Shown here: in pieces, positions 1 through 14,912 of the stretch
How the letters are laid out: the number at the start of each line of letters is the position of its first letter
Position numbering within the stretch: the stretch's first letter is position 1
From: Methylophaga sp.
GTDB lineage: Bacteria; Pseudomonadota; Gammaproteobacteria; Nitrosococcales; Methylophagaceae
Reading direction: 5' to 3'
DNA: 17,236 nt
NCBI GenBank assembly: GCA_014762585.1
Contig: JABURN010000172.1
Location: 1 to 17,236, forward strand
Notes under the pieces: model-generated
What the model was told of the DNA's origin: nothing
The model's input: only the letters and a program-made list of their open reading frames with translations
Database searches by the model: none
Translations under genes and position numbers: made by a program

Positions 1-80
1 GTAACCATGAGAGACAAAAACAACACCATCCAGGCTGCTGGCGGATGAAGCGTAAAAAATCTTTTTAATAGCTTTGTCAT
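1..80 (-). CDS. 5' end of an unidentified membrane or exported protein (runs off the left edge)
   Basis: The minus strand is open from an ATG at 80 to the window edge, 26 codons without a stop. The peptide starts MTKLLKRFFTLHPPAAW and continues into a hydrophobic run (MVLFLSLMV). Basic residues followed by a hydrophobic stretch are what a signal peptide or first membrane helix looks like. It begins 35 nt after the stop of the histidine kinase on the same strand with no terminator between, so co-transcription is plausible. The Shine-Dalgarno is weak (GAGTGA about 3-8 nt upstream). The family cannot be named from 26 residues, and a chance open frame is possible. Confidence 0.45.
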   Translation of the reverse strand, partial: MTKLLKRFFTLHPPAAWMVLFLSLMV

Positions 81-115: not shown

Positions 116-2917
116 TTAGAAGCTGTTGTTCAACACAGTTATTAAACGCTGAAAAGACTGGGACAGTTGCTCTATCAACTGATGAAATTTTTCTTGGTCT
201 CCCTCTTTAGCTGCCTGCTCCAGTTGCTGCGCACATGCTGACATCTCTTCAGCTGCCATATTGGCAGAGGCGCCTTTGATTTTGTGTGCCAGTTTGGCGA
301 TGGCGTCTTTTTCCCCTTCTCTACCTGCTTCCTCGATATCTGCCAGTTGCTGTGGCATATCGGCAAGGAAGTTTTCTACGACCTGCTTCATCAGTGACTC
401 ATCACCCATCAGACGATGGCTGAACAGTGATTTATCAAATACTTCCGAGTCGTTTTTCATATCAGTCACCTTGGTATCGACAAACGAAAGAGCAGTATTT
501 GAGTTATCAGCAAAATCAGTTTCTATGCTCAGCCATCTGCACATTGCCTGATAGAGCGATTCTGACTCTACCGGCTTCGCCAGATAATCTGACATTCCTG
601 CATCCAGGCACTTCTCTTTATCACCGCGCATGGCGTGGGCAGTGAGAGCAATGATCGGTATCTGATTATCGAATTGGCCTGACTGATCTGCCCTGATCTC
701 ACGGCTACACTGATAGCCATCCATCACCGGCATCTGACAGTCCATGAAAATCAGGTCATAACGGCGTTTCCTCAAAAGTGCCAGAGCAATTTCTCCGTTC
801 TCGGCCACATCCACTGTAGGGCCAAACATTTCAATTAAGCCCTTGGCGACAACCACGTTGATGTAGTTATCTTCAACCAGCAATATTCTGGCATCGATGA
901 TCTCGTGTTGGGTTTCGCTCTGAACCTGCTGTTCTAACAGACTACGTGTTTTGCCTGAAACAAACCCAAGCATGGCATTAAACAACTCTGACTGCACCAT
1001 GGGTTTACTTAAAACCAAACACTGTTCCTGTTGAACTTTTTTGTTAGAGCGACTCAATTCCCCATGATCTGCAATTAGTAAAAACTCACACAAAGTCCGG
1101 TTCTGCTGAACAAAGCTTTCACCCTCTGGCGACACAAAGTCTTCAATATCCATCAGAACAATGACTCTCTGGCTTTCCAAACTGCTTTGATGAAGCAGTT
1201 GCGTCAGGTCAGCGAAAGTCTCAGTTATTTGATAATTGATGTGCCAGTTTGTCATTACATCTTCAAAGTAACGTTGGTACCACGGTGTCTGACTGAGGAT
1301 CAGAAGGTGCAATTCAGCCAGCAGCCCCGTGTCTGAATGTGAAACCCGCTCACGACGGCTGCTTTCCAGTTTTAGCTCAAACCAGAAGGTTGATCCCAGC
1401 CCGGCTGTACTATTGACACCAATTTGTCCTCCCATCATCTCTACCAAGTGACTGCAGATGGATAAACCCAGTCCGCTGCCGCCGCGCTGACGGGTTGGAC
1501 TGGCGTCAACCTGACTAAAACGTTGAAACAGTTTTTTCTGTTCCACGTCGCTGATACCAATGCCAGTGTCAGAGACACTGAACCTGATGGTTTTCACATT
1601 TGCAGATACTGACAAGGTAACAACATCAAGAGTGACGCTACCGTTGTCGGTGAACTTAATGGCGTTGCCAATAAGGTTGTTGAGAATCTGCTTCAATCTG
1701 AGCCGGTCGACTCGCACTATCATTGATGGCATGTAATGAGCGGGGCATAAAAGATCCAGTCCTTTTTCATCTGCTCGACTCGCCATGGCTCGTGCCACTT
1801 CAGTCAACAAATCATTTAAGTCCACATTGCGTTCATGTAACTCAAGTTTCCCAGACTCAATTCTGGATAAATCAAGTATGTCGTTAAGCAGTCCAAGCAG
1901 CGTCTCGGCGCTTTTTCTGCTTATCGTCACTAGATTTGACTGACGACTGTTGAGCTCTGTCTCGGTGAGAAGATTGAGCGTACCAATAACACCATTCAGA
2001 GGTGTTCTCAGCTCATGGCTCATGTTGGCAAGGAACTCACTCTTGGCAACATTCGCCTGTTCTGCCTCTTCTTTTGCCTGAACCAGTTCGGTTGCGGCTT
2101 GTTTAGAAGCAGTCATATCTTCATAAGTGCCCAGTACACCAATGATTTCATCCTGCTCATTCTTGAGTGGGACTTTATTGGTGTTGAGCCAGATTTCATT
2201 GCCTTTAGCATCGACGATAAATTCTTCAATTTTCAGTAGTGGCTCTCCTGAAGTCATTACTGAGGTGTCATCTTCGATGAATTTATCGGCTACCCCCCCT
2301 TTCCAGGGCATGTCAAAATCTGTTTTGCCACTGAGCTCTTCCATGCTATTCATGCCGGCATCCTGAAGAAACAGTCTGTTACCACCAATAAAGGCCGACT
2401 GGCGGTCCTTCCAGAAAACCCGGACGGGGATCGCATCGAGAATGGTAGACAACATTTTGTTTGATTCGGATAACAGGCTTCGGCTTTTTTGCAGTTCTGC
2501 TTCAGCTTCTCTGCGCGAGCTATTTTCGTCACTTAATTGCTTGTTAAGGCTGATGAGTTCCTTCAAGTCAGGTAATGCCACCATGTCCGAGAGACGAGGT
2601 ATCAAATAGACCGCGGTGGCGACTGAAACTATGGCCGTCAGGGCTTTGAGCACGCCTTCCAGGTAATACAGCGGAAACCAGAGCGTGACGATACCCATCA
2701 AGTGGGTCAATCCGCAGGCGGTGATAAACCCTGCGAACAGGTAATAAACCGGCTTAAAGGTGATGTCATCTTTCTTTCTTACAAAGTAGATGATTCCGAT
2801 AGGTATCGAAAAGTAGGCAAGCGCAATGAAAATGTCTGATAAAACATGCAGGATTAGAAGCGTCACATCCCATGAAATACAAACGCCATGCGGCATAAAC
2901 TCGTGTATGTGATCCAT
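116..2917 (-). CDS. Hybrid histidine kinase with ETR1-like (ethylene-receptor-type) membrane sensor, PAS, REC and HPt domains
   Basis: 933 aa. Domains in order: an N-terminal three-helix membrane domain (about 18-108); PAS (about 150-270); HisKA with phospho-accepting His301 in HELRTP; HATPase with N-box NNLIGNAIKF, DTGIGI (450-455) and GSGLGLSI; a degenerate receiver-like stretch (about 535-650); a true receiver (about 676-795) with Asp726 in FMDCQMP and Lys781; and a C-terminal HPt with His878 in AHKIKG. This is an ArcB/BarA-type internal phosphorelay. The membrane domain resembles plant ETR1: SDIFIALAYFSIP and CGLTH match ETR1 SDFFIALAYFSIP and CGATH. Asp28, Tyr35, Ile38, Pro39, Cys68 and His72 all sit at a constant +3 offset from ETR1 D25, Y32, I35, P36, C65 and H69; Cys and His are the Cu(I) ligands. 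The start is supported by GGGAGG 6 nt upstream. Divergent from a response-regulator diguanylate cyclase, a possible partner. Ligand identity is inference. Confidence 0.93.
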   Translation of the reverse strand: MDHIHEFMPHGVCISWDVTLLILHVLSDIFIALAYFSIPIGIIYFVRKKDDITFKPVYYLFAGFITACGLTHLMGIVTLWFPLYYLEGVLKALTAIVSVATAVYLIPRLSDMVALPDLKELISLNKQLSDENSSRREAEAELQKSRSLLSESNKMLSTILDAIPVRVFWKDRQSAFIGGNRLFLQDAGMNSMEELSGKTDFDMPWKGGVADKFIEDDTSVMTSGEPLLKIEEFIVDAKGNEIWLNTNKVPLKNEQDEIIGVLGTYEDMTASKQAATELVQAKEEAEQANVAKSEFLANMSHELRTPLNGVIGTLNLLTETELNSRQSNLVTISRKSAETLLGLLNDILDLSRIESGKLELHERNVDLNDLLTEVARAMASRADEKGLDLLCPAHYMPSMIVRVDRLRLKQILNNLIGNAIKFTDNGSVTLDVVTLSVSANVKTIRFSVSDTGIGISDVEQKKLFQRFSQVDASPTRQRGGSGLGLSICSHLVEMMGGQIGVNSTAGLGSTFWFELKLESSRRERVSHSDTGLLAELHLLILSQTPWYQRYFEDVMTNWHINYQITETFADLTQLLHQSSLESQRVIVLMDIEDFVSPEGESFVQQNRTLCEFLLIADHGELSRSNKKVQQEQCLVLSKPMVQSELFNAMLGFVSGKTRSLLEQQVQSETQHEIIDARILLVEDNYINVVVAKGLIEMFGPTVDVAENGEIALALLRKRRYDLIFMDCQMPVMDGYQCSREIRADQSGQFDNQIPIIALTAHAMRGDKEKCLDAGMSDYLAKPVESESLYQAMCRWLSIETDFADNSNTALSFVDTKVTDMKNDSEVFDKSLFSHRLMGDESLMKQVVENFLADMPQQLADIEEAGREGEKDAIAKLAHKIKGASANMAAEEMSACAQQLEQAAKEGDQEKFHQLIEQLSQSFQRLITVLNNSF

Positions 2918-3072
2918 TTTTATCCTCCCAATGCTTTAACCATCCCGGTCTCAAACACTTACACTTCAGAAAATCTAGCACACAACCAAATAGCTTTGGT
3001 AAAGTGATTTATGAAACATATTGCCAGTTGCATGGATGAGTTAGTTAACATCTGCTGAGAAAAGAGGTTAAT

Positions 3073-4014
3073 TTGAAGTTATTAATTGCAGATGACGATG
3101 CCACCAGTCGTTACATACTGGAATCAGCGGCGACAAAATGGGGCTTTCATCCGGTGGTTGTTGAAGATGGACTAAAAACACTTGAAGTGATGTCAGGTCC
3201 CGATGCTCCCGGCCTCATTCTGCTGGACTGGGAAATGCCCGGGCTGGATGGTCTGAGCATAGCTAGACATCTGACGAGTACTAATCCAGAGCATCCACCA
3301 TACATCATCATGCTGACGGCTCGGGATAACAACAACGATATCGTATCAGGTCTCGCGGCCGGCGCTAGCGACTACATCACCAAACCTTTTGAGATTGATA
3401 TTCTCAAAGCGAGGCTACAACTCGCCAGACGTAATCTTGAACTGCAAAATAAACTGAATAAAGCCATGGCGAGACTTGAAACGCTGGCCAACGTCGATGA
3501 GCTCACGGGACTCCCTAACCGACGCGCCGCCTTGAAAGCCATCTCCACTCAGATAAACCGTAGTAAAAGAGAACAAGATCAGCTTTGTATCGGCCTCTGT
3601 GACATCGACTTTTTCAAGGAAGTTAATGATGGACATGGCCATGCCGCTGGAGATGACGTGCTTAAAGAAATCGCGGGCCTTCTGGAAGAGGGCTTCAGAG
3701 ATTACGATGTCATCGGGCGCTATGGTGGTGAAGAATTCATCTTTGCTGTGTCAGCAAATATGAATTCTGCTGATGTGCTGTTGGAACGGATCCGGGCTTC
3801 AATCAACCAGGCGACTTTCATGCTGTCAGGTCAATCTCACACCATTACCATGAGCTTCGGTGCTGTTATGGTCAGCAACGATGGGAAAACCCTCGATGAC
3901 TGGATTCTATATGCCGATGAAGCACTGTATCACTCAAAAGCATCAGGCAGGAACCGGGTGACTTTCTATGAAAGCGATTACTCTCAAGACATTGATTCAC
4001 CCATCTCAGCATAA
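3073..4014 (+). CDS. Response regulator diguanylate cyclase (REC-GGDEF, PleD-like)
   Basis: 313 aa, predicted cytoplasmic enzyme making cyclic-di-GMP from two GTP. An N-terminal receiver (about 1-120) has the acidic pocket Asp7-9, phospho-acceptor Asp52 in LLDWEMPG and Lys104 in TKPF. A linker helix leads into a GGDEF domain (about 138-305) with DELTGLPNR, CDIDFFKEVND and the active-site GGEEF at 218-222. An inhibitory I-site RxxD (R209-D212) lies just before it, so product inhibition is expected. The start is a TTG, chosen because AAAGAGG sits 5 nt upstream and the next in-frame ATG (residue 40) would remove half the receiver. It is divergent from the hybrid kinase, with 155 nt between them, so that HPt protein is a natural phosphodonor candidate; this is inference. 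No clear terminator separates it from the pqqA that starts 95 nt downstream. Confidence 0.93.
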   Translation: MKLLIADDDATSRYILESAATKWGFHPVVVEDGLKTLEVMSGPDAPGLILLDWEMPGLDGLSIARHLTSTNPEHPPYIIMLTARDNNNDIVSGLAAGASDYITKPFEIDILKARLQLARRNLELQNKLNKAMARLETLANVDELTGLPNRRAALKAISTQINRSKREQDQLCIGLCDIDFFKEVNDGHGHAAGDDVLKEIAGLLEEGFRDYDVIGRYGGEEFIFAVSANMNSADVLLERIRASINQATFMLSGQSHTITMSFGAVMVSNDGKTLDDWILYADEALYHSKASGRNRVTFYESDYSQDIDSPISA

Positions 4015-9238: not shown

Positions 9239-10711
9239 TTATTCAGCGAGCTTGATACAGTTCCTGCCAGCACCTTTAGCGAGATAAAGCGCTTTGTCTG
9301 CTCGCTCGATCAGGCTGGTCATCGTCTCCCCCGCGGCTAACTCAGACAAGCCGGCACTGACGGTGACTGTGAGTCTGGTGTCATCAAAATGGAATGTCCA
9401 GGCCGAAATGGCGAGGCGAATCGCCTCGATTCTCTGCATAGCATGGGCCTCATCACAGTCACTGAACATCACCAGAAACTCTTCACCGCCCCAACGGCAG
9501 AGAACATCTTCCTTGCGTATATGCAGTTTGATGATCCGTGCCACCGCTTCAAGCACTTCATCCCCATGATGGTGTCCGTGATTGTCATTCACCTGCTTAA
9601 AGTGATCGATATCTATCAGCGCCAGGGAAAGTGGCTGTTGATGACGGCGGGATTTCGCCAGCGCCTGATCAAACAGGCTGTCAAACACCTGCCGGCTGGC
9701 AGCACCGGTCAACTTGTCTCGTGTCGCCATGGTTTCCAGTCTGCCCTGATATCCGCGTAGAGCGAGGTGGGCAATAAACAACACCACGATACTGATGGCG
9801 AGTGACACCAGAATGTTGATCCACAGTGCTGCTTCAACCTTTTCCGAGGCCGGGTCATTGACCTGTTCTACAATCAGAAACCAATCGAATTCCGGCACCA
9901 TACGACTGTTCAGATAAATCACGTTACCGTTTTTGGCTTCAAATGACACTGAAGCGCTAGGCGTGGTCAGAATACGGGTGAACAGTTTATCCAGGCCTTC
10001 CTTATTCTGAATGTGCAATTCATCGCTGTACTGACTGCTCTGCAGCATCACATCGCCCTGACGATTAACGAAGTAAATTTCACGGCCATAACGACGCTGA
10101 TAATTTTCAATCAGCTGAACCACACTCTCCATAGACAGGCCGACCCCGATCAGGCCGATGAACTCTCCCTGTTTGTTTTCCACCCGGTAATTAACAAAAA
10201 TACTCAGGCGGCTGCGATCAGCGGTGTCCTGATCAATATTGATCTCATAATCCTGGTTCATTTCGCGGGCACGGAAATACCACTGGTCAGCAGGCTCGGC
10301 TTCTGAAACCTTTTTGATGATGCCGTCAGGATGGTAGTAAAGCCGGCTTTTTTCAGAAACGAAAAAAGCGGTAATGGTCTCGTATTTGTCCTGGATTTGA
10401 GCAAGATAACGCTGCATTTGTTTTGGATCCTGCTCGCCCTTGGCTACCCAGTCGATGGCAAAGGTGTCATTTGCCATCAACGAGGAAATAAGCACGGGTT
10501 GCAGCAGATCACGCTGGATTTCAGAGTAGATGTTGTCACTGGTCAATGGCAGCATCTCCTGTTGCAAACGTTCTGCAATAGAATCACGCGCCACAAAATA
10601 GCCAATCAGGCTCGTTGCCAGAAAGCCCAGCAGGACAATCACACTGATGATGACGCTATAGAGACGTTTGCGGCTTTGCATAAGACTGAATCGCCTGAAA
10701 AAACCTGACAT
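9239..10711 (-). CDS. Membrane-bound diguanylate cyclase with periplasmic dCACHE-like sensor
   Basis: 490 aa from the ATG at 10711. A first membrane helix (about 17-40) is followed by a periplasmic sensor region of about 260 residues with Cache-type features (DQWYFRA, IFVNYRV, GEFIGLIGVGLSMESV), a second helix (about 296-318) and a cytoplasmic GGDEF domain. Active-site GGEEF is at 408-412, metal-binding ALIDIDHF before it, and an I-site RKED at 399-402. The usual DxLTGLxNR entry reads DKLTGAASR. It predicts ligand-controlled cyclic-di-GMP synthesis with product inhibition. Start choice is uncertain: a TTG at 10720, the ATG at 10711 and an ATG at 10681 are all in frame, and none has a good Shine-Dalgarno. 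It lies 125 nt after the small membrane protein on the same strand. The signal it senses is unknown. Confidence 0.9.
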   Translation of the reverse strand: MSGFFRRFSLMQSRKRLYSVIISVIVLLGFLATSLIGYFVARDSIAERLQQEMLPLTSDNIYSEIQRDLLQPVLISSLMANDTFAIDWVAKGEQDPKQMQRYLAQIQDKYETITAFFVSEKSRLYYHPDGIIKKVSEAEPADQWYFRAREMNQDYEINIDQDTADRSRLSIFVNYRVENKQGEFIGLIGVGLSMESVVQLIENYQRRYGREIYFVNRQGDVMLQSSQYSDELHIQNKEGLDKLFTRILTTPSASVSFEAKNGNVIYLNSRMVPEFDWFLIVEQVNDPASEKVEAALWINILVSLAISIVVLFIAHLALRGYQGRLETMATRDKLTGAASRQVFDSLFDQALAKSRRHQQPLSLALIDIDHFKQVNDNHGHHHGDEVLEAVARIIKLHIRKEDVLCRWGGEEFLVMFSDCDEAHAMQRIEAIRLAISAWTFHFDDTRLTVTVSAGLSELAAGETMTSLIERADKALYLAKGAGRNCIKLAE

Positions 10712-10777
10712 GATAGGCAAGCTGCGTGCTAAATACCAGTTCCAGCAAAACCTTTTTTACTATCGATCTTCGGTCGC

Positions 10778-11877: not shown

Positions 11878-13089
11878 ATGAGCCCAGATACCATCGCCAC
11901 CATCAAAGCCACTGTACCTGTTCTGCAAGCCCATGGTGAACAGCTTACCCGGCTTTTTTATCAACGCATGTTCGAGAATAACCCCGAGGTTAAACCTTTT
12001 TTCAATCAGGCTCATCAGCAAGCTGGCAGCCAACAAAAAGCACTGGCCGGGGCTATCTGTGCGTATGCAGAAAATATTGATAATCCAACGGCTTTAGCTG
12101 CCGCAGTGGAATTGATTGCTCAGAAACATGCCTCCCTCGGTATCAAGCCCGAACACTATCCGATTGTCGGTCAGAATCTACTCGCGGCTATCAAGGAATT
12201 GCTTGGCGATGCCGCCACTGATGACATTATTAATGCCTGGGCTGAGGCCTATCAGGTACTGGCGGATATCTTTATTCAGCGAGAAGCCGAAATTTATCAG
12301 AGTCACGAGCAACAGCATGGCTGGCAGGGCTTTAAACCGTTTAAGGTAATTAAACGGGAAGATAACAGTCAGATCATCAGTTCCTTTTATCTGCAACCCG
12401 CTGACAACCAGCCTTTGAACCCGCATCTGGCAGGTCAATATATTACCGTCCGAGTCCCGGCGACTGAAGAGCATGAGCCGATGCGTAATTACAGCCTGTC
12501 TAATAAACCGGGTGATGATTATTACCGTATCAGCGTCAAACGGGAAACGGCCATTGAGAGTGAAGCACCTCACGGCCTGGTCTCAAACTTTCTGCATGAT
12601 CAGGTTGCAGCCGGTGACACTATCTGGGTGGGCCCTCCCTGTGGCGAATTCACCGTTCGCACCCCCACCGGTAAATCCATGGTAATGATTGCCGGCGGTG
12701 TCGGTATCACACCCTTACTGTCGATGCTGCATGCCAGCCTGGATAAAAACGATACAGCTCAAGTCACCCTGATTCAGGCGGCGGTTAATGGCGATGCGCT
12801 GGCCTTTTCAGAAGAAATTGCTGAACTTAAAGATAACAACAGTAATTTTGACTGGCATGTCCGCTACAGTGAACCGACTGATAATGACCGCTATCTGGGT
12901 CGTTTCCACAGTGAGGGTTTGATCGACGAAGATCTACTGGACTCGGTGGATAAATCAGCCGACTTCTATCTCTGCGGTCCGGCCGGCATGATGCAGCACT
13001 GCCATCGCTTATTAACCCAGGCAGGTATTCCGTCTGAGCAGATTCACCTGGAGGCATTTGGACCGGCGTTACAACTGGCGAGTGAGTAA
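11878..13089 (+). CDS. hmp: Flavohaemoglobin, nitric oxide dioxygenase
   Basis: 403 aa, standard Hmp length. It oxidises NO to nitrate with O2 and NAD(P)H in the cytoplasm. The globin domain (about 1-140) has proximal His84 (QKHASLGI), distal Tyr28 and Gln52, and Tyr94 and Glu137 of the proximal network. The FAD domain has RNYSLS (203-208), and the NAD domain has GGVGITP (273-279) and YLCGPAG (364-370). All parts are present, so it should be complete. AAGGGAG lies 7 nt before the ATG. A 17-nt-spaced promoter and NsrR box precede it, and nsrR is convergent downstream, so it is predicted to be induced by NO through loss of the NsrR iron-sulphur cluster. Confidence 0.96.
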   Translation: MSPDTIATIKATVPVLQAHGEQLTRLFYQRMFENNPEVKPFFNQAHQQAGSQQKALAGAICAYAENIDNPTALAAAVELIAQKHASLGIKPEHYPIVGQNLLAAIKELLGDAATDDIINAWAEAYQVLADIFIQREAEIYQSHEQQHGWQGFKPFKVIKREDNSQIISSFYLQPADNQPLNPHLAGQYITVRVPATEEHEPMRNYSLSNKPGDDYYRISVKRETAIESEAPHGLVSNFLHDQVAAGDTIWVGPPCGEFTVRTPTGKSMVMIAGGVGITPLLSMLHASLDKNDTAQVTLIQAAVNGDALAFSEEIAELKDNNSNFDWHVRYSEPTDNDRYLGRFHSEGLIDEDLLDSVDKSADFYLCGPAGMMQHCHRLLTQAGIPSEQIHLEAFGPALQLASE

Positions 13090-13097
13090 TTCGTCAG

Positions 13098-13117
13098 GTA
13101 GCTCAGGGATGAGCTAC
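13098..13117. terminator. Hairpin between convergent hmp and nsrR
   Basis: Perfect 8-bp stem GTAGCTCA (13098-13105) and TGAGCTAC (13110-13117) around GGGA. No T-run on either strand, so it is at best a weak intrinsic terminator, or a 3'-end stabiliser for both mRNAs. Confidence 0.5.
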
Positions 13118-13549
13118 TCAGGCGACATTCAGGCTTTGTTGTAATCTTGACTTGTTCTTGACCACATCCTGCAGGCTGTAGCCATCGAGTACTTCCAGAA
13201 AAGCTTTTTGTGCTTTGCGCAGTGCGCCATACAAAATGCAAACGTTATCTATGGGGCAGGCACACTGGTCACCAAAACACTCCAGTAGCTCAAGATTTTC
13301 TGTCTTGCGAATCAGCTTACCGATATTGATCTCCGCCGGCTGCAAGGCCAGTTTCAGACCACCGCCACGGCCGCGTTGGCTAAGAACAATCTTCTCCTGC
13401 ACCAGCTTTTGTGCGACTTTCGCTAAGTGATTGGTGGAAATCCCGTAGCGCTCGGCTGCGTCTTTGACCGTGGCAGGTTTATCGCCAGGATGGATTGCCA
13501 AATAAATCAGCAGACGCATCGCGTAATCCGAGTGTGTTGTGAGCTGCAT
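13118..13549 (-). CDS. nsrR: NO-sensing Rrf2-family repressor NsrR
   Basis: 143 aa. An N-terminal winged helix (about 1-65; THSDYAMRLLIYLA, YGISTNHLAKVAQKL, RGRGGGLKLA) is followed by the cluster-binding loop ECFGDQCACPIDNVC. Cys91, Cys96 (or Cys98) and Cys104 fit the three cysteines of NsrR (E. coli 91, 96, 102), and Asp8 matches the fourth ligand known from Streptomyces NsrR. The four cysteines leave some doubt over which is the spare. NO destroys the cluster and releases DNA. The position next to hmp and the NsrR box ahead of hmp distinguish it from IscR or RirA. AAGGAG lies about 7 nt before the ATG. A 40-bp palindrome sits upstream, probably for autoregulation. Confidence 0.9.
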   Translation of the reverse strand: MQLTTHSDYAMRLLIYLAIHPGDKPATVKDAAERYGISTNHLAKVAQKLVQEKIVLSQRGRGGGLKLALQPAEINIGKLIRKTENLELLECFGDQCACPIDNVCILYGALRKAQKAFLEVLDGYSLQDVVKNKSRLQQSLNVA

Positions 13550-14480: not shown

Positions 14481-14912
14481 ATGTATCTTGTGAGCCTGGT
14501 TTATGCCAGTACCCGTGCTGATGACTGGGAAGACAATGACATTTACCAGATTTTGTCCGAATCAGGAAAGAACAACGCAAAATCGTCTATCACCGGCTCG
14601 CTCTGCTTCAACGGGGACTATTTCCTGCAGTGCCTGGAAGGTGGCCGCACGGCGGTAAATGAGCTCTACCGCAGGATACATAATGATCGGCGCCACCGTG
14701 ATGTCATCCTGCTGCATTACAGTGAAATCACTCAGCGCAGCTTCGAGCAGTGGCACATGCTGTATGTGCCGGAGTCCAGAATCAGTGAGTCACAAATTCT
14801 GCGCTATTCCGGTCAAAAGCAATTCAACCCTTATCAAATGAGTGGTGCAAGCGCACTGCAATTATGCCGTGAACTTGCTTTCATCGCCCCCGAGGAGCAA
14901 TCAGAGCTTTAA
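14481..14912 (+). CDS. BLUF-domain blue-light photoreceptor (stand-alone)
   Basis: 143 aa. The first 95 residues form a BLUF domain that binds FAD. Tyr8, Asn32, Gln50, Trp91 and Met93 lie at the same spacing as Tyr21, Asn45, Gln63, Trp104 and Met106 of AppA (constant offset -13), so the photoactive hydrogen-bond network is intact. Other matches: ITGSLCFNGDYFLQCLEG and RRIHNDRRHRDV. The remaining 45 residues hold no known output domain, so it is a short BLUF protein that would act through a partner, as PixD or YcgF-like proteins do. It starts 5 nt after the lipocalin stop, with GGGAG overlapping that gene's end. It overlaps the convergent cysteine hydrolase by 12 nt. Confidence 0.94.
   Translation: MYLVSLVYASTRADDWEDNDIYQILSESGKNNAKSSITGSLCFNGDYFLQCLEGGRTAVNELYRRIHNDRRHRDVILLHYSEITQRSFEQWHMLYVPESRISESQILRYSGQKQFNPYQMSGASALQLCRELAFIAPEEQSEL

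Follow-up and report, generated by a model that had tools for sequence, protein, structure and literature searches.

The window, meaning the whole 17,236-nucleotide stretch of Methylophaga DNA analysed here, carries close to one end a minus-strand gene (positions 116..2917) for a hybrid histidine kinase of 933 residues, ordered EBD-PAS-HisKA(H301)-HATPase-REC(D726)-Hpt(H878), in which EBD denotes an ETR1-type ethylene-binding domain. The ETR1_N, PAS_4, HisKA, HATPase_c, Response_reg and Hpt matches each exceed the Pfam cut-off, and the HisKA, HATPase, REC and Hpt modules with their phospho-residues place the protein among HK-REC-Hpt kinases. A first-pass annotation of positions 2590-2917 (kinase residues 1-109, minus strand) had proposed a full relay, and His301, Asp726 and His878 are all present; its guess of a probable methylotroph likewise agrees with the genus, Methylophaga. 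BarA/TorS/ArcB-type hybrid kinases share the HK-REC-Hpt layout, and the best NCBIfam match is to BarA (457.6 bits, curated cut-off 890), beginning at residue 277, after the sensor.

An intergenic region of 155 bp (2918..3072), without a sigma-70-like promoter in a consensus scan, separates the kinase from a divergent REC-GGDEF response regulator gene with a TTG start (3073..4014, plus strand; 313 residues). On the other side, a further gene starts 35 bp past the end of the kinase gene (3..80, minus strand); its first 26 codons are present before the contig ends, and its product begins like the CHASE-domain hybrid kinases of two relatives. The first-pass annotation mentioned neither neighbour.

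Elsewhere in the window, a gene for an NO-inducible flavohemoprotein (518 bits, cut-off 432) is convergent with one for an Rrf2-family repressor (together 11878-13549), which is most like NsrR at 113.5 bits (NsrR cut-off 182). A BLUF blue-light sensor gene (14481-14912) adjoins that of a Blc-like lipocalin (75.9 bits, cut-off 267), and a second diguanylate cyclase, of dCache-GGDEF type (9239-10720), is syntenic in two Methylophaga relatives, G048 and G050.

The sensor keeps the ligand residues of ETR1

Residues 20-114 of the kinase (2576..2860, minus strand) match Pfam family PF25487 (ETR1_N) with E=1.3e-34 and 118.8 bits (cut-off 27), which rules out a chance match and bears out the ETR1-type domain recognised at first pass. 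An AlphaFold2 model from a 78-row alignment contains three predicted helices (residues 18-48, 55-80 and 84-113; mean pLDDT 85.4), with Asp28 to Pro39 in helix 1, Ile65 to His72 in helix 2 and Lys91 in helix 3. The modelled domain thus has the form predicted for a bacterial receptor, three helices with the putative copper ligands Cys68 and His72 in the second. No solved structure matched the membrane domain in sequence at E<=10.

All seven positions of the AtETR1 binding list (D25, Y32, I35, P36, I62, C65 and H69) are kept in the kinase as D28, Y35, I38, P39, I65, C68 and H72, together with Lys91; the ETR1 letters in this comparison were checked by eight residue numbers. Six of these letters had been read correctly at first pass, and Ile65, which had gone unmentioned, corresponds to ETR1 I62 at the same +3 offset. 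That offset, earlier described as constant, holds through helix 2 to His72 and is lost beyond it: Lys91 aligns with ETR1 Lys91 at offset 0, which means that three residues are deleted relative to ETR1 between helix 2 and helix 3. Published excerpts of PMC11819568 state that ethylene binding by ETR1 needs seven residues, and number the Azospirillum receptor D35, C75 and H79 but K98, so that the three-residue deletion occurs there too.

To place these residues in their family we aligned 288 sequences, comprising 240 proteins (the best 120 of 175 and the best 120 of 121 from two protein searches), 47 locus frames including that of the window, and AtETR1. With one gappy row (P0237) removed, 270 unique bacterial rows yielded 143 representatives at 80% identity. 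Among the matches listed, the equivalents of Cys65 and His69 are each kept in 142 of the 143 representatives, Ile62 in 139 and Tyr32 in 138; Asp25, Ile35 and Pro36 each reach 135, and Lys91 reaches 131. By conservation, the seven positions occupy ranks 2 to 20 among the 142 columns of these matches, or 2 to 25 once Lys91 is counted, against 51% conservation in the median column.

It is very improbable that the membrane domain binds no ligand and merely anchors and dimerizes the kinase. Such a role is conceivable for diverged members, since His69 is replaced by Arg in L153 and L154 and Cys65 by Leu in L156, and these three perhaps lack the copper site, but in the window domain none of the eight positions has changed, and their columns belong to the best conserved of the family in the matches listed. 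Two of the eight also change together. Among the matches listed, Asp25 is missing from 8 representatives, 7 of which have no Lys91 either, whereas Lys91 is missing from 5 of the 135 that retain Asp25 (p=3e-8, uncorrected for relatedness), and eight rows of the family alignment form an Asn25/Asp91 group (ETR1 numbering). This joint change fits the Asp25-Lys91 contact from ETR1 modelling that is quoted in excerpts of PMC11819568.

Ahead of helix 1, the family alignment reveals a further motif, P9-H-G-x-C-x-x-W16 (2870..2893, minus strand). PHGxCxxW occurs in 135 of the 143 bacterial representatives among the matches listed, or 136 if Ala is allowed for Pro, and some of those without it are sequences cut off at that place. 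ETR1 is not known to carry it. Conceivably, though this is speculation, the motif might admit copper to the domain.

A further member of a known receptor type

Of 397 genomes sampled within the phylum, 33 have the EBD family, among them the genome of the window; 31 exceed the cut-off. The domain occurs in 17 of 57 genomes of the window's taxonomic family and in 14 of 24 Methylophaga genomes, and it was found in none of 14 named control genomes. The 80 loci kept from a whole-kinase scan of genome contigs, none with an EBD at E<=1e-5, served as controls only. This occurrence disagrees with the statement in excerpts of PMC4686702, citing an earlier study, that EBDs are generally absent from bacteria except cyanobacteria. 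A review, in excerpts of PMC7700396, describes many proteobacteria and cyanobacteria as encoding such domains with a wide range of outputs. Bacterial members have also been studied directly: saturable ethylene binding is reported for Azospirillum AzoEtr1, which is said to hold the seven residues (excerpts of PMC11819568), and ethylene responses are reported in Synechocystis and Geitlerinema, the latter with two predicted receptors that both have all seven (excerpts of PMC6682694). The first-pass view that the domain goes beyond the common bacterial sensor kinase is therefore not upheld, given a catalogued Pfam family, its spread over many Proteobacteria and published bacterial ethylene binding. 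The sensor is a good further example of the known bacterial ethylene-receptor type, and no new kind.

Arabidopsis ETR1 resembles the window kinase in its seven binding residues, Lys91, three membrane helices, and kinase and receiver modules. It has a GAF domain where the window kinase has PAS, is not known to carry an Hpt and signals through CTR1. AzoEtr1 of Azospirillum brasilense shares the N-terminal three-helix domain, the seven residues, the following PAS and histidine kinase and the three-residue deletion before the Lys, as far as excerpts of PMC11819568 describe it; it has only 525 residues, with a separate 135-residue regulator without output domain encoded downstream, whereas the window kinase has its own REC and Hpt and a REC-GGDEF neighbour. 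SynEtr1/UirS (slr1212) of Synechocystis also carries an EBD on a two-component kinase, and with it ethylene alters biofilm formation and phototaxis, but this protein is cyanobacterial and doubles as a UV-A photosensor; in excerpts of PMC6682694 and PMC5812497 its regulators are UirR and LsiR, and an Hpt-GGDEF relay is not mentioned.

Family membership leaves room for a Cu(I) receptor whose physiological ligand is something other than ethylene, such as another small unsaturated gas or copper itself. The occurrence across many Proteobacteria fits more than one ligand, the chemistry may partly differ given a PHGxCxxW motif common to the bacterial domains and not known from ETR1, and no known ethylene-making or ethylene-using enzyme appears among the 20 window protein entries scanned. 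We nevertheless judge such a ligand unlikely, as the residues that ETR1 uses for ethylene are kept and receptors reported to hold the same seven either bind ethylene, in AzoEtr1 (excerpts of PMC11819568), or occur in an organism that responds to it, Geitlerinema (excerpts of PMC6682694).

A divergent REC-GGDEF gene is the probable output

The REC-GGDEF protein has a receiver Asp52, a GGEEF active-site motif at residues 218-222 and an RxxD inhibitory-site motif (RDYD) at 209-212, and is on these motifs a predicted diguanylate cyclase. It is the probable output of the Hpt-bearing kinase. The same divergent EBD kinase/REC-GGDEF pair recurs at L191 and L196, in two genomes of one other family, where both kinases have REC and Hpt matches (the L191 Hpt at 22.3 bits, under the Pfam cut-off of 24.6). 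A single protein, P0059, joins the whole set as EBD-PAS-HK-REC-REC-Hpt-REC-GGDEF in collinear order, the window kinase aligning to its residues 9-930 (31% identical) and the REC-GGDEF protein to 991-1284. In addition, the six full-length proteins from other genomes of the genus that best match the REC-GGDEF protein (in G033, G036, G037, G048, G050 and G055) are all encoded beside Hpt-bearing genes, as identified with custom-built domain models and confirmed with Pfam for one of the six.

We also weighed the reading in which the kinase is an ethylene receptor but its Hpt feeds another, distant regulator. A GGDEF gene lies within 500 bp of 6 of 29 EBD proteins that are not themselves fused to GGDEF and of 10 of 63 ordinary hybrid kinases (one-sided p=0.39), a comparison based on crude longest-ORF gene calls, custom domain models and controls picked by similarity to the window kinase; enrichment of GGDEF genes beside EBD proteins is thus unsupported. 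This test began from 45 case and 80 control loci, with no focal gene in L113 (case) and L039 (control), and left out GGDEF-holding proteins and loci with less than 1 kb on either side, including the window itself (115 bp downstream). Conservation of the REC-GGDEF gene with the kinase is ruled out, as it is missing at the syntenic site of G048, G050 and G055, whose loci hold other GGDEF genes that are not adjacent to the kinase. Other partners are possible as well, the window genome having 80 matches to the REC-GGDEF protein when REC-only and GGDEF-only matches are counted.

Three observations speak against a distant regulator: the divergent pair recurs at L191 and L196, P0059 fuses the two proteins collinearly, and the best genus relatives lie in Hpt-linked contexts. 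Orientation points the same way: the pair is head-to-head in the window, L191 and L196 and in none of 10 GGDEF-linked controls, whose listed GGDEF genes all run in the direction of the kinase, a post hoc observation on too few cases to test. The recurrence probably reflects pairings of separate origin, since the window REC-GGDEF protein shares 38-42% identity with its best relatives in the genus but 35% with that of L191 and 33% with that of L196. Overall, a distant regulator seems to us an improbable destination for the phosphate, and the divergent REC-GGDEF protein remains our preferred partner.

Two EBD architectures within Methylophaga

The 14 EBD-positive Methylophaga genomes divide into 4 with the kinase (the window's, G048, G050 and G055), in all of which it occupies one conserved site adjoining SDR, MscS and MarR genes, and 10 with an EBD-GGDEF fusion of about 300-336 residues, two of the ten confirmed with Pfam. 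By simple count over genomes, none of the 24 of the genus holds both architectures. The fusion proteins (L101, L102, L104, L106-L109, L111, L112 and L114) have the same sensor and the same predicted second messenger as the window kinase, but join the sensor directly to the cyclase, sit at another genomic site and occupy a separate branch of the domain tree. Their existence adds to the case for c-di-GMP as the output of EBD sensing in Methylophaga.

In a FastTree phylogeny of 150 domains, with identical rows entered once, those of kinase type from the window's family group in one clade (support 0.98), whose ten tips are nine kinases and the unclassified L018. The GGDEF-type domains group in another, of 15 GGDEF tips (support 0.78), with L017, from another genus, placed elsewhere. 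Output labels (kinase, GGDEF or other) require 28 changes on this tree; 200 shuffles of the labels averaged 63 changes and never gave fewer than 55, which indicates that outputs are partly inherited and often exchanged. A neighbouring genus encodes an EBD-GGDEF-EAL protein (L115:7914-9752), possibly a bifunctional c-di-GMP enzyme under an EBD sensor.

A probable CHASE kinase gene begins at the contig edge

Window bases 80-3, on the minus strand, encode MTKLLKRFFTLHPPAAWMVLFLSLMV, which resembles the CHASE-kinase start HPPAAWLVLLLSLMV in G055. A CHASE-PAS-HK-REC kinase follows the EBD kinase gene in G055 after 42 bases and in G048 after 14 bases, by longest-ORF starts, and in neither CHASE kinase did Pfam find an Hpt. 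In these two relatives the CHASE kinases are complete (L099:10770-13805 and L103:2101-5535) and match PF03924 with E=3.9e-65 and 3.5e-65. No remainder of the CHASE kinase turned up in the assembly of the window (85.7% complete), whose sole CHASE match is weaker and on another contig; CHASE domains occur in 23 of the 24 Methylophaga genomes.

In G050 the kinase (L100:7944-10343) ends after its REC, with no Hpt and no CHASE gene at that site. By eye, this REC is like the EBD kinases in its first half and like the G048 CHASE kinase in its second. Such a mosaic is expected if two tandem receivers recombined with loss of sequence, and the G050 kinase appears to be what remains of the pair. In all, two sites show the whole EBD/CHASE pair, the window shows the start of it, and for G050, the fourth site, it is inferred.

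Among solved chains, the L103 CHASE domain matches 6k62, which we take to be Xanthomonas PcrK, with E=1.2e-16, and Arabidopsis histidine kinase 4 (AHK4) with E=8e-10. Changes at AHK4 T301, F304, R305 and T317 cost cytokinin binding wholly or strongly, according to excerpts of PMC1863423; L103 has S, V, T and Y at these positions (alignment by eye, hand-counted). A plant-type cytokinin receptor in the adjoining CHASE kinase is therefore unsupported, the AHK4 residues being unkept in L103. The bacterial chain 6k62 likewise lacks F304, R305 and T317, and loss of these residues is thus compatible with cytokinin-type ligands.

Discussion

Our preferred reading, held with moderate confidence, is that the kinase is a membrane-bound, bacterial-type ethylene receptor that relays to c-di-GMP, the second messenger governing the switch between swimming and settling, via the divergent REC-GGDEF protein. 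Cys68 and His72 would hold Cu(I) within the membrane, with tuning by Asp28-Lys91, and the copper would bind ethylene or a similar small alkene. Binding would alter autophosphorylation at His301, and phosphate would then pass to Asp726, to His878 of the Hpt and on to Asp52 of the REC-GGDEF protein. Phosphorylation of Asp52 would in turn raise or lower c-di-GMP synthesis, and through it attachment or motility.

Bacterial ethylene receptors that we found described in print come from cyanobacteria and the plant-associated Azospirillum, and their control targets are only partly known. The c-di-GMP wiring of such a kinase appears little explored, and a CHASE neighbour is unexpected. In excerpts of open papers on ethylene receptors and GGDEF, diguanylate cyclase or c-di-GMP, coupling of an EBD to c-di-GMP is not described; such coupling may well be published elsewhere, as a diguanylate cyclase gene is grouped with GeiEtr2 (excerpts of PMC6682694) and EBD outputs are wide-ranging.

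Methylophaga are marine methylotrophs that live on methanol, and their sensor, on a phosphorelay or fused to a diguanylate cyclase, poses a simple question: does ethylene change c-di-GMP? If it does, a molecular route would connect ethylene with biofilm formation, and ethylene-linked biofilm responses are reported for Synechocystis (excerpts of PMC6682694) and Azospirillum (excerpts of PMC11819568). More speculatively, the tandem EBD and CHASE kinases could form a two-signal module, sharing the single Hpt of the EBD kinase and setting c-di-GMP through the divergent REC-GGDEF protein, with ethylene-type sensing wired to c-di-GMP twice in one genus, by relay and by direct fusion. Were this tentative proposal true, free-living marine methylotrophs would read two algal- or plant-type cues in choosing whether or not to settle on phytoplankton.
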